64,000 nucleotides of DNA, taken from contig NC_020829.1 of the NCBI RefSeq assembly GCF_000349845.1, positions 2,797,001-2,861,000 on the forward strand. The letters are read 5' to 3'. This DNA comes from Pseudomonas sp. ATCC 13867 (lineage in GTDB: Bacteria; Pseudomonadota; Gammaproteobacteria; Pseudomonadales; Pseudomonadaceae). Below the pieces are notes generated by a model. It worked only from the letters and a program-made list of their open reading frames with translations, ran no database searches and was not told the DNA's origin. Made by a program: the position numbers and the translations under genes. Shown here piece by piece: positions 60,580 to 64,000 of this stretch. Within the stretch, counting starts at the first letter, position 1; every line of letters begins with the position of its first letter.

Positions 60580-62103
60580 ATGACCCGCGCCCTTGCTCCC
60601 CTCGCCTGCTGCCTGATCCTGCTCGGCGGCTGCGCCGTCGGCCCCGACTACCAGGCACCGAAAACCCGGAGCCCGGCCGACTGGCAGGCGGCCCATTCCG
60701 GCGAGGCGGCGCTGCCGCCTGCCGCCGGTACCACCCAACTCGCCGAGGACTGGTGGACACTGTTCAACGACCCGGTACTGAACAACCTGCAGCGCCGTGC
60801 GGACAAGGCCAGCCCCGACCTCAACACTGCCGTGCTGCGCTTCGCCCAGAGCCGCATGCAGCGGCAGATGGTGGCCTCCCAGCGCGGCGTGGATGTCAAC
60901 GCCCAGGCGGCGGTCAATCGCCAGCGCATGAGCGAGAACGGCGCCAACGCGCTGATGATCCAGCGCATCGCGCCGGGCGCGAACAGCGAAGAAATCAGCA
61001 AGATCCTCGCCGAGCCCTTCACCCTCTACCAGGCCGGCTTCGACGCCTCCTGGGAACCGGACCTGTGGGGCCGCATCCGTCGCTCCATCGAATCCGCCGA
61101 TGCCAGCGTGGCGGCGCAGGCGGCGATGCTCGACGAGGTGCGCCTGGGCGTCGCGGCGGAACTGTCCCGCGCCTACTTCGAGCTGCGCGGCGTGCAACAG
61201 CAGATCGCGGTGACGCGCCAGGACCTGGCCGCCACCGAGCAATCCCTGCAACTGATCCAGGTGCGCGCCGACGGCGGCCTGGTGGACGACTTCGACGTCG
61301 AACGCCAGCGCGGCCAGCTTGCCGACCTGCGCTCGCGCCTGCCGCAACTGCTGGCCAGCGAAAGCGCCGCGATCAACCAGGTCGGCGTGTTGATCGGCGC
61401 CGAGCCCGGCAGCCTGCGCGACGACCTCAAGCCAGTGGCGCAAGCCGAACCGCAGACGCCCGACCTCAGCCTCGGCCTACCCTCGGAACTCGCCCGCCGC
61501 CGCCCGGACATCCGCGCCGCCGAAGCCCAACTGCATGCCGCCACGGCCAATATCGGCGTGGCGGTGGCCGATCTCTACCCGGCCATCCGCCTGGGTGCGC
61601 GTTTCGGCTTCGAATCCACCGAGGACGGCCGTATCAGCGACTGGGGCAGCCGCAACTGGAGCGTGGGGCCGAGCCTCTCCGTGCCGATCTTCGACAATGG
61701 CCGGAGGCGCTCCAGTATCAACCTGCGCAAGCTGGAACAGCAGGAAGCCGCCGTGGCCTACCAGCAGACCGTGCTCAAGGCCTGGCAGGAAGTCGACGAC
61801 GCCTTGAGCCAGTACGGCGCCGAACGCCAGCGCAACCGCCAGTTGCAGGACAAGCAGCGCAGCACCGACATCGCCTACGGCATGGCCAGGGCGCGCTACG
61901 CCGGCGGGATGACCGACTTCCTGGTGGAACTGGACGCCCAGCGCGCCTACCTGCAATCGCGCCGCGACCTGGTGGACAGCGACACCCAGCTGCGCCTGAC
62001 CCTGATCGCCCTGTGCAAGGCCTTGGGCGGCGGCACGCCGCCCCCGCAAGCCCGTCGCGACGAGCCCCCCGCGGCGGAAGCGAAAGAAACCGCCAGCCGC
62101 TAG
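60580..62103 (+). CDS. Outer-membrane efflux lipoprotein (NodT/OprM family)
   Basis: 507 residues. Lipobox LLGGC with lipidated C18, then the twin OEP repeats (helical hairpins with TolC-like motifs, for example ASWEPDLWGRIRRSIESADA and GPSLSVPIFDNGRRRSSINL). It completes a five-gene tripartite exporter with the HlyD, twin-ATPase and permease genes; homologues of such sets export drugs or toxic organics. It ends convergently with the next gene, the two stop codons overlapping in CTAG (62100-62103). Confidence 0.95.
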   Translation: MTRALAPLACCLILLGGCAVGPDYQAPKTRSPADWQAAHSGEAALPPAAGTTQLAEDWWTLFNDPVLNNLQRRADKASPDLNTAVLRFAQSRMQRQMVASQRGVDVNAQAAVNRQRMSENGANALMIQRIAPGANSEEISKILAEPFTLYQAGFDASWEPDLWGRIRRSIESADASVAAQAAMLDEVRLGVAAELSRAYFELRGVQQQIAVTRQDLAATEQSLQLIQVRADGGLVDDFDVERQRGQLADLRSRLPQLLASESAAINQVGVLIGAEPGSLRDDLKPVAQAEPQTPDLSLGLPSELARRRPDIRAAEAQLHAATANIGVAVADLYPAIRLGARFGFESTEDGRISDWGSRNWSVGPSLSVPIFDNGRRRSSINLRKLEQQEAAVAYQQTVLKAWQEVDDALSQYGAERQRNRQLQDKQRSTDIAYGMARARYAGGMTDFLVELDAQRAYLQSRRDLVDSDTQLRLTLIALCKALGGGTPPPQARRDEPPAAEAKETASR

Positions 62104-62723
62104 TGCGGCGCGGCGGCCGTCAGGCGGCTGTCGCGCAGGTCCCTGGCCACCCGCAGCTGCATCTCGTAGGCCGGCGCCTCCACGGCGTCGAAGTCCTCGC
62201 TGTAACGGTTGGCGAAACCCTGCACGCCCCACTCCTGGTACTGCTTCACGTGCCACAGTTCGTGGGCCCAGAGGGCGACGTTGGTCTGCGCGTCCTCCTC
62301 GCTGCGAAAGACGATCACGTCCACCAGGGTGACGGCCTCGGTGTCGGGGTTCTGCATGATCGTCTGGGCGGCGTTCAACTCGTCCAGCGCGCCGGTGGAA
62401 TAGCGCGCCGCCATCAGCACCTCGTCGGGGAAATAGGCCTGCAGCTGCGCGCGGATTTCCAGCGGGACCGGCAGGGTGCCGCCCTGCTCCGCCTGGTCGC
62501 GGGACTGCTGCAGCCAGACGCCCAGCGCCTGGCCGGCCATCTTGCGGGTATCGGCGATCACCGGGCCGAGCACGGCGCCCAGGTCCGGCAGGCAGACGCA
62601 ACTGTCCAGGCAGACCTGGCGCTGCCCCTGCGGGCAGGTCGCGGCAGGGGTTTCGACGGACACGACCAACCCGGCGAGCAGCGCCAGTGCGCGCAGGATG
62701 CGGGTCGGAATGGGGGATGGCAT
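62100..62723 (-). CDS. Secreted HExxH protein (DUF4157-like)
   Basis: 207 residues from ATG 62723. Signal peptide (ALALLAGLVVSVETPAA), then a short Cys-rich stretch (C30, C38, C42, C44). Near the C-terminus lies HELWHVKQYQEWG (H154, E155, H158) with a downstream Glu in VEAPAYE, a zinc-metallopeptidase-like site as in DUF4157 proteins. Function is unknown. Convergent with the efflux lipoprotein. Confidence 0.8.
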   Translation of the reverse strand: MPSPIPTRILRALALLAGLVVSVETPAATCPQGQRQVCLDSCVCLPDLGAVLGPVIADTRKMAGQALGVWLQQSRDQAEQGGTLPVPLEIRAQLQAYFPDEVLMAARYSTGALDELNAAQTIMQNPDTEAVTLVDVIVFRSEEDAQTNVALWAHELWHVKQYQEWGVQGFANRYSEDFDAVEAPAYEMQLRVARDLRDSRLTAAAPH

Positions 62724-62853
62724 GTGGGGAGGCTCCGCTGCAGCGTGGAGAAAGACATGTCGGTTGGACCGCGTTGCGGCGCGATCATGCCATGCCGCCG
62801 GCACAAAAAGAGCACTGGCGCGACGGATGAAACTTCTGCTAGCTTCATGCCCC

Positions 62854-62916
62854 ATGAATGCCGCCAACCGCACCTTCCAGCAGATTATTACCACCATCGC
62901 TCCGATGGTGGGTTAG
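62854..62916 (+). CDS. 20-codon leader peptide ORF
   Basis: MNAANRTFQQ followed by IITTIAPMVG, ending TAG at 62916. There is no clear Shine-Dalgarno sequence; a TGCTAGCTT element just upstream could be an extended -10 giving a nearly leaderless RNA. Ile and Thr codons are clustered (ATT ATT ACC ACC ATC). Its last codons (GGTGGGTT, 62907-62914) can pair with the 5' arm of the terminator that begins 20 bases after the stop, so it fits a translated attenuator leader. Amino-acid or other control is inference. Confidence 0.55.
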   Translation: MNAANRTFQQIITTIAPMVG

Positions 62917-62935
62917 CGCATTCGAAGCGACAACC

Positions 62936-62959
62936 AAACCCGCCTCCCGGCGGGTTTTT
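62936..62959 (+). terminator. Intrinsic terminator of the leader (attenuator)
   Basis: AAACCCGCC (62936-62944) pairs perfectly with GGCGGGTTT (62949-62957) around TCCC, followed by further T residues: a textbook terminator, 20 bp after the leader ORF and 41 bp before the next gene's start. The 5' arm can alternatively pair with 62907-62914 (one G.U). Confidence 0.85.
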
Positions 62960-62999
62960 CAATGCCCGCCGTCCGAGGCTCCCGATCGAGGAGATACCG

Positions 63000-63416
63000 A
63001 TGGCCCCGGCATTCCCCGCAGCCCTCCACCCTGGGCAGCATCCCCTGCAAGCACTCATCCAGGCCGCCGACGAGGCCATCGGTCGCGAGGACTTCGACGC
63101 GCTGCTGGCGTTCTACACCGACGACGCCCTGCTGCTGGTCAAGCCCGGCCTGCTGGCGCGCGGCAAGGCCCAGATCCGCCAGGCCTTCGTCGCCATCGCC
63201 GAACATTTCGACCATGACTTGCGGGTGCGCCAGGATCGCCTGGAAATCCTCGAAGCCGGCGATACCGCGCTGGTGGTCGCGCAGACCCTGCTCGACACCC
63301 GCCACGGCACGCTGAGCCGCCGCGCCACCTACGTGTTCCGCCGCGAAGCCGACGGCACCTGGCGTTGCGCGGTCGATAACTCCTACGGCACCGACCTGCT
63401 GGAGGCGACACCATGA
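63000..63416 (+). CDS. SnoaL/NTF2-like (DUF4440-type) protein
   Basis: 138 residues, with GAGGAG about ten bases before ATG 63000. NTF2-like cone: QALIQAADEAIGREDFDALL, AFYTDDALLLVKPGLLARGK, RRATYVFRREADGTWRCAVD. Such small proteins bind small ligands or act as isomerase-like enzymes; no catalytic residues can be assigned. It lies 40 bp beyond the leader terminator, so its expression should depend on read-through, and it overlaps the ATPase gene (ATGA). Confidence 0.9.
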   Translation: MAPAFPAALHPGQHPLQALIQAADEAIGREDFDALLAFYTDDALLLVKPGLLARGKAQIRQAFVAIAEHFDHDLRVRQDRLEILEAGDTALVVAQTLLDTRHGTLSRRATYVFRREADGTWRCAVDNSYGTDLLEATP

Positions 63417-63898
63417 GTACGGGCACTTTGCACCTGCTGTGTGGCAAGGCGGCGTCGGGCAAGTCCCGCCTCGCCCGCGAACTGGCCGAGGCGCCGGGCA
63501 CCGTGATGCTGGCCGAGGAACAATGGCTCGCCGAGCTCTTCCCCTGGGGCATCAGCAACCCCGACGACTACCAGCTCTACGCCCGCCGCGTGCGCAAGGT
63601 CATGGGCCCGCACGTGGTCGGCCTGCTGCGCGCCGGCACCAGCGTGGTGCTGGACATCCCCGCCAACACCCTGGCCGACCGCCGCTGGCTGATCGACCTG
63701 GCGCAGCAGGCCGGCGCCGCGCATTGCCTGCACTTCCTCGATGTCGACCCGGCCACCTGCCGCAGCCGCCTGCTGGCCCGCCACGCCCTGGCGCCCCTGG
63801 CCGCGCCGCTGGACCCGGCCGGCTACGAGGCGCTCAATCGCTACTTCGTCGCCCCGCGCCCGGAGGAAAAACTGCAAGTGCAGCGCCACGGCGCCTGA
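63413..63898 (+). CDS. Small P-loop ATPase/kinase (AAA-type)
   Basis: 161 residues. Walker A G11-KAASGKS-18 (HLLCGKAASGKSRLAREL) near the N-terminus, and SVVLDIPANTLADRRW, a Walker-B-like strand. The size and layout are those of AAA_33/zeta-toxin-like small nucleotide kinases that phosphorylate small molecules. Translationally coupled to the SnoaL-like gene. Substrate unknown. Confidence 0.9.
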   Translation: MSTGTLHLLCGKAASGKSRLARELAEAPGTVMLAEEQWLAELFPWGISNPDDYQLYARRVRKVMGPHVVGLLRAGTSVVLDIPANTLADRRWLIDLAQQAGAAHCLHFLDVDPATCRSRLLARHALAPLAAPLDPAGYEALNRYFVAPRPEEKLQVQRHGA

Positions 63899-63946
63899 GC
63901 GCGTAGAATCGCCGCCCCGATTTGCTCCAATCGCCTGACCGGAAAG

Positions 63947-64000
63947 ATGAACGCCGAAGCCATCGCCACCCTGCGCGAGCAACTGCTCGCCGCCCTGAAC
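63947..64000 (+). CDS. Start of an unidentified gene (3' end outside window)
   Basis: Begins MNAEAIATLREQLLAALN and runs off the window in frame. GGAAAG precedes the start closely, and TAGAAT at 63904-63909 could be a -10 element. Too short to identify. Confidence 0.6.
   Translation, partial: MNAEAIATLREQLLAALN

Follow-up and report, generated by a model that had tools for sequence, protein, structure and literature searches.

The leaders of the enteric thr, ilv and trp operons contain a short open reading frame (ORF) in which control codons are clustered, and three helices that compete with one another. P9 (RF00624), reportedly described in a 2006 paper, is filed in Rfam as an sRNA gene. 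It is also listed among the RNA-seq-detected sRNAs of P. aeruginosa in the available part of PMC3272035, and the main text of a 3'-end map of this species, as far as it is accessible, makes no mention of ilv, PA1325 or isoleucine (PMC8297930). No article that presents P9, or a leader of ilvA, as an attenuator was found in the partly available literature, in which the coverage of subscription journals is thin. In the accessible text of PMC7298713, the S. meliloti trpL/rnTrpL is an attenuator RNA that starts at the leader ATG and was found as an sRNA; it carries Trp codons, belongs to trpE(G) and has a demonstrated role in trans.

The window, that is the whole stretch of 64,000 nucleotides of Pseudomonas sp. 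ATCC 13867 that was analysed, contains an element with the same helices and terminator as RF00624, which is here read as a leader-peptide attenuator and precedes SnoaL-like and AAA_33 genes (SnoaL-AAA_33) instead of the commoner ilvA. It shares with the enteric leaders the short ORF, the clustered control codons and the three competing helices, but has other control codons and no Shine-Dalgarno sequence before the leader ORF; a start at the leader ATG, as in the S. meliloti RNA, is likewise proposed, whereas the codons, the target and the demonstrated trans role of the latter set it apart. Anatomy, family match, conservation, gene linkage and competing structures were all computed. Very probably, the element is a transcription attenuator of the trp/thr/ilv-leader type in which a translating ribosome senses tRNA-Ile, and it leads a SnoaL-like/AAA_33 operon. 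Such a mechanism is ordinary and known, and its family is filed as sRNA; as targets of a switch of this kind, the two genes are new.

Anatomy and family of the leader element

The features of the locus are collected in Table 1. The ORF encodes MNAANRTFQQIITTIAPMVG (translation of 62854-62916) and is probably placed at the extreme 5' end of the mRNA. Segment 2 of helix 2:3, GGTGGGTT (62907-62914), is able to pair with AACCCGCC (62937-62944) with a single G.U, and this pairing overlaps the leader stop codon. The terminator stem comprises nine pairs closed by a loop of four, with the T run at 62955-62959. Together, the helices 1:2, 2:3 and 3:4 are the complete set of a classic attenuator. A sequence-only reading of the region had described the 20-codon ORF, the terminator and the competing helix including its single G.U, and our reading of the sequence places all of them where it did; helix 1:2 was absent from it.

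Table 1. Coordinates of the leader element, its probable promoter and the downstream genes
Feature	Position	Strand	Details
Probable promoter	62816..62845	+	weak -35 TGGCGC 62816-62821; extended -10 TAGCTT 62840-62845, TG 62837-62838
Leader peptide ORF, 20 codons	62854..62916	+	ATG 62854, TAG 62914-62916; sequence read
RF00624 (P9) match, full model	62881..62958	+	52.4 bits, cut-off 43, E 1.7e-10
Control codons AUU AUU ACC ACC AUC	62884..62898	+	Ile Ile Thr Thr Ile, codons 11-15
Helix 1:2	62891..62911	+	nine perfect pairs, 62891-62899 with 62903-62911
Antiterminator helix 2:3	62907..62944	+	62907-62914 with 62937-62944
Intrinsic terminator 3:4	62936..62959	+	62936-62944 with 62949-62957, plus T run
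SnoaL-like / DUF4440 protein	63000..63416	+	138 aa; Shine-Dalgarno GAGGAG 62988-62993
AAA_33 P-loop protein	63413..63898	+	161 aa; start overlaps the SnoaL-like stop (ATGA); Pfam AAA_33 4.2e-23

The segment 62850-62970 folds at -43.4 kcal/mol compared to -28.17 (sd 3.24) in shuffles (z -4.70), with none of the 200 shuffles as low. The shuffles, the Rfam match and the conservation rule out a chance hairpin. The terminator at 62936-62959 is absent from the output of a simple terminator scan, probably because the stem uses part of the T run. It does not belong to an upstream gene, because the nearest one (62100-62723) sits on the opposite strand. A phage origin was also considered, and phage records gave no match.

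By score, the element is a member of RF00624 'Pseudomonas sRNA P9', matching model positions 1-74 of 74, and it represents the single RF00624 match in the ATCC 13867 genome. Trp_leader (RF00513; 22.7 of 41 bits) and Phe_leader (RF01859; 18.1 of 55 bits) stayed under their cut-offs, and Thr or ilv leader families were not among the Rfam matches of the element. The RF00624 cut-off was exceeded in 23 of the 25 genomes examined from the genus, in 196 of the 398 from the family and in 0 of 14 controls; at E up to 0.001, where some matches are weak, they extend to 207 of the 398 family genomes in 8 of 19 genera. Over its full length, the element is 90-95 % identical in 15 congeners.

The SnoaL-like protein (Pfam DUF4440 4.1e-11, SnoaL_3 5.1e-11) has a sequence relative in B. 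subtilis YybH (PDB 2gxf, E 2.1e-38), which was deposited as a hypothetical protein, and a link between YybH and isoleucine was not found in the partly available literature. Structure prediction gave a confident model for the AAA_33 protein (mean pLDDT 89.8).

Relatives and their downstream genes

The relatives comprise 166 loci, namely 23 from the genus search, the 23 pattern-fitting ones of 28 further loci from the family search and at least 120 that came from scanning named genomes for the pattern. Some genomes occur under two identifiers (L091, L146 and L160 resemble G008, G018 and G010), hence the counts refer to loci and not to independent events. Among the matches listed, the element is followed by ilvA at 123 loci, by SnoaL-ilvA at 8, by SnoaL-AAA_33 at 19, directly by AAA_33 at 3 (all Achromobacter), by another P-loop kinase at 1 (Microbulbifer) and by SnoaL alone at 2, one of which (L146) is truncated by the locus end. 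An ilvA, SnoaL or P-loop gene is next on the same strand in 156 of these 166 listed loci; nothing was recognised downstream in 10, four of them chance hits and six with fewer than 215 downstream bases. The two ilvA products that were checked are both threonine ammonia-lyases above the TIGR01124 cut-off. The 23 genus genomes show SnoaL-AAA_33 (16), SnoaL-ilvA (6) or ilvA (1). The earlier view that the target lies outside amino-acid biosynthesis is thus partly right: the genes regulated here are new, but the gene most frequently found after the element is ilvA, which encodes threonine dehydratase and belongs to isoleucine biosynthesis. The own ilvA of ATCC 13867 was located with a 28-residue query at G000:C1:5286396 on the minus strand, and its upstream DNA showed no leader of the P9 type.

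The order P9-SnoaL-ilvA is found at L020, whose SnoaL-like protein is 95.6 % identical to P0163 of P. aeruginosa and groups with it (99/95). We take PA1325 to be the SnoaL-like gene preceding ilvA2 in P. aeruginosa. In the available portion of PMC5150637, one table gives similar fold changes for PA1325 and PA1326 (ilvA2), 1.927 and 1.801, respectively. Moreover, an RF00624 match stands before a lone SnoaL gene in four Pseudomonadaceae genomes, of which L232 alone is over the cut-off (46.4 bits) and L225, L233 and L226 reach 35.6-39.5 bits; in G386 and G095, the lone-SnoaL match is the second RF00624 match of the genome.

The pattern scan fixed ATTATTACC, hence the conservation of ATTATTACC in L071-L190 is by construction, and four loci (L094, L103, L169, L176) were removed as chance hits, which reduced the 166 loci to 162 for later counts. 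Helix 1:2 has a single position that the pattern did not constrain. There, the 162 loci among the matches listed show G-C 137 times, A-T 25 times and neither A-C nor G-T, and two G.T occur among the 86 distinct elements. Pairs were counted by script from anchored segments (186 loci, 86 distinct; two loci unparsed), because the MAFFT alignment A1 shifts the terminator arms by one column in some rows; the covariance model R1 was built on this alignment and has only 9 pairs. In the distinct elements among the matches listed, 572 of 688 cells are paired for 1:2, 626 of 688 for 2:3 and 682 of 688 for 3:4, and when the partner is shifted one or two columns, the pairing drops to 0.24-0.57 overall and to 0.34-0.57 for 2:3. 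Since the finding of loci itself fixes much of the helix conservation, weight is laid on the co-varying pair and on cases found without regard to the leader. In 160 of the 162 loci among the matches listed, an in-frame ATG is located 10-13 codons ahead of the first codon for Ile. Strong selection on the peptide beyond the control codons was rejected: outside them hardly any is visible, 71 of 240 changes being synonymous, against a random expectation of 0.235.

In the leader-blind analysis, the SnoaL protein was searched in 369 class genomes and the leader was ignored. Two of the three non-own homologues (L239, L240) have an IIT leader and a terminator, the leaders being MQSQLSIFQQIITLIQRGWWVC and MNTHTTTTHLIITIIPNEWWVF, and a leader is absent at the third one, L238. 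A covariance model untrained on L240 and L239 recovers both (63.4 and 55.9 bits), and gives 50.4 bits for a third SnoaL-like case in G765 (protein DUF4440 1.1e-6). Over the 369 class genomes it marks seven places in six genomes, i.e. the own one, G428 and G595 (the genomes of the L239/L240 pair), G765, G691 (AAA_33), which was in the training set, and G470, which has two matches, one before a GNAT gene and one before a gene for an AAA_18-like kinase; 12 other genomes of the order of G470 gave no covariance-model match. Among 188 genomes of the family of G691, matches occur in G691 and G956 only, and the AAA_33 reading frame of G956 is apparently shifted after ~80 residues. Leaders before SnoaL genes hence occur in other families, too. 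That the leader goes chiefly with the AAA_33 gene is not supported, as only two of the 17 class genomes encoding this protein (own and G691) have the leader; the upstream DNA was read by eye at 5 of the 17 non-own loci and at the rest by the covariance model and a peptide pattern, which missed L192. Conservation in relatives had been set beforehand as the test of the translation-coupled attenuator that the sequence-only reading proposed in front of the SnoaL-like/P-loop pair, and the outcome supports it: relatives retain the ORF, the helices and the terminator, with co-variation at the unconstrained position of helix 1:2.

Some loci show further arrangements. L234 (genome G353) has a P9-type leader and no recognised SnoaL gene, and the gene start there resembles SnoaL, perhaps as a decayed copy. 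Leaders of the same type precede genes for a GNAT acetyltransferase and AAA_18-like P-loop kinases in G470 (L254, L256) and Microbulbifer taiwanensis (L084).

Ribosome position and the leader message

Folds with a stalled ribosome were calculated for the ATCC 13867 leader with segment 4 still untranscribed, assuming a footprint of 15 nt beyond the start of the P site. The probability of helix 2:3 is 0.86-1.0 with control codon 1, 2, 3 or 4 in the A site, 0.29 at control codon 5 and 0.0 at the stop. Among 22 representatives, 2:3 reaches at least 0.86 in 21 when the first Ile codon occupies the A site, the exception being L239 (0.32), and it is 0.0 in all 22 with the ribosome at the stop. It had been suggested that an absent ribosome, too, would favour the antiterminator. 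This is not the case in ATCC 13867, in which the ribosome-free leader gives 0.68 for 1:2 and 0.0 for 2:3 because 1:2 forms, hence the ribosome-free RNA should terminate; the suggestion fails likewise in 14 of the 22 representatives (2:3 at most 0.1) and holds in 8 (at least 0.4). In silico, the position of the ribosome thus sets antiterminator and terminator as exclusive alternatives, with exceptions among the 22 representatives. On the full-length ATCC 13867 RNA, the terminator has a probability of 0.999 in every ribosome state; therefore, the switch depends on timing during transcription. Attenuation of the trp operon is likewise timing-dependent.

The probable promoter leaves 8 nt between the -10 and the leader ATG in ATCC 13867. 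Among the matches listed, 159 of 162 loci gave a promoter call, with 6-9 nt from -10 to ATG and a TTGAC-type -35 in at least 136, the calls being poor for distant leaders; a Shine-Dalgarno-like motif was found before the leader ATG in 0 of 160 loci and 50-110 nt past the leader stop in 155 of 160. The spacing and the missing Shine-Dalgarno suggest that the leader peptide is translated from a leaderless message. A start site between terminator and structural gene had been named as evidence against the leader; no promoter-like site is seen there, which is weak evidence, as the simple scan found none in the whole of 61500-64000 and also misses the leader promoter.

For the events in the cell, we infer translation of the leader, its start site, the tRNA-Ile signal, the induction of the genes and the roles of their products as follows. 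Transcription would start at the leader ATG or a few bases off, and the 20-codon peptide would probably be read leaderless. With plentiful charged tRNA-Ile, the ribosome would reach the stop and cover segment 2, so that 3:4 terminates transcription and an RNA of ~106 nt, the 'P9 sRNA', is released. With scarce tRNA-Ile, and perhaps tRNA-Thr too, it would stall at the rare AUU-AUU over segment 1, 2:3 would pair before segment 4 is made, and the polymerase would enter the SnoaL-like and AAA_33 genes. If no ribosome is present, 1:2 would form and transcription would end.

A second control is possible at the level of translation. In L022, L100, L123 and others, the stretch from the terminator to the structural gene contains an inverted repeat, CTGTCTCC...GGAGACAG, which would sequester the Shine-Dalgarno site, and an anti-Shine-Dalgarno motif is present in 100 of 146 distinct loci among the matches listed. 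The fold control for this hairpin was not discriminating (mean 0.82 vs. 0.74 in shuffles; 141 vs. 141 loci above 0.5).

Sensed signal, other readings and neighbouring genes

The control codons are clustered upstream of segment 2, and the Ile pair is retained in relatives that were found without the ATTATT pattern. In seven genes of the neighbourhood, 2 of the 79 Ile codons are AUU, the codon that stands twice running in the leader; in 16 leaders found without that pattern it makes up 39 of 51 Ile codons, though several of these genomes may be less G+C-rich. Ile-Ile is the steadiest feature of the peptide (IITTI, IITAI, IITLI, IITII, IITTV, IIIAF, IIRIL), the variants being Ile-Met (L221, L231) and Met-Ile (L254). 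Together with ilvA as the main target, these codon features point to tRNA-Ile, hence it is probably the familiar signal, charged tRNA-Ile, that is sensed here, and Thr may contribute.

That threonine is sensed instead of isoleucine, or that both are required, we consider unlikely. Thr is the substrate of IlvA, ACC ACC follows the Ile pair in the ATCC 13867 leader, and the L240 leader has a run of Thr codons; however, ACC is the common Thr codon (79 of 108), and Thr is missing in L192 (SIIRILHGKAG), L226 (SSIIIAFT) and L253 (IIILAIL), which retain the Ile pair. The main rival on the signal is a sensor of generally slow translation or of ribosome-directed drugs, not of isoleucine, with protective genes as targets. 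Rare AUU codons would be slow regardless, and the targets other than ilvA are small enzymes such as P-loop kinases and, in G470, GNAT, but ilvA as main target and Ile-Ile as the most constant feature of the peptide make this reading rather improbable.

It is quite improbable that P9 is a trans-acting sRNA with its own terminator, next to which ORF and downstream genes are incidental. Rfam classes P9 as gene/sRNA, it is among the RNA-seq-detected P. aeruginosa sRNAs in the part of PMC3272035 at hand, and a terminated attenuator RNA can act in trans, as the accessible text on S. meliloti rnTrpL reports (PMC7298713). On the other hand, the steady linkage to ilvA, SnoaL or P-loop genes on the same strand, the frame of the ORF, its rare Ile codons and the pairing of segment 2 over the stop codon suit a leader, and a trans role may exist alongside the leader role. 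Hardly any credit is due to a decayed copy from ilvA that has lost its regulation, for which the weak -35 and the own ilvA elsewhere without such a leader could be quoted, against the near identity across the 15 congeners and the SnoaL-preceding leaders of other families.

Returning to the tRNA-Ile attenuator, the SnoaL-like/AAA_33 operon is proposed to be part of an isoleucine-starvation response, because the family usually controls ilvA. We give an even chance to a wider proposal, in which the P9 family would consist of isoleucine-tRNA attenuators in Gamma- and Betaproteobacteria, with leaderless leader peptides and a small regulon of ilvA, SnoaL/YybH-like, AAA_33, AAA_18-like kinase and GNAT genes; SnoaL/YybH and AAA_33 would serve either the isoleucine/threonine branch or the cell's reaction to uncharged tRNA-Ile. 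If true, what is catalogued as a small RNA would be a specific sensor whose input can be measured, and the SnoaL/YybH-like and small AAA_33 families would gain a testable physiological context, for a widespread family a first functional foothold. The leader is furthermore a candidate case of attenuation on leaderless messages in Pseudomonas.

Two neighbouring genes may be mentioned. The gene after AAA_33 (63947 to beyond the end of the window; L019:5948-6886) encodes an RlmI/RlmK-like methyltransferase, under the NCBIfam cut-offs. The divergent gene at 62100-62723 (minus strand) encodes an eCIS core domain protein (Pfam 1.1e-10) and has stayed next to the leader in the 16 genus genomes that show the SnoaL-AAA_33 order.
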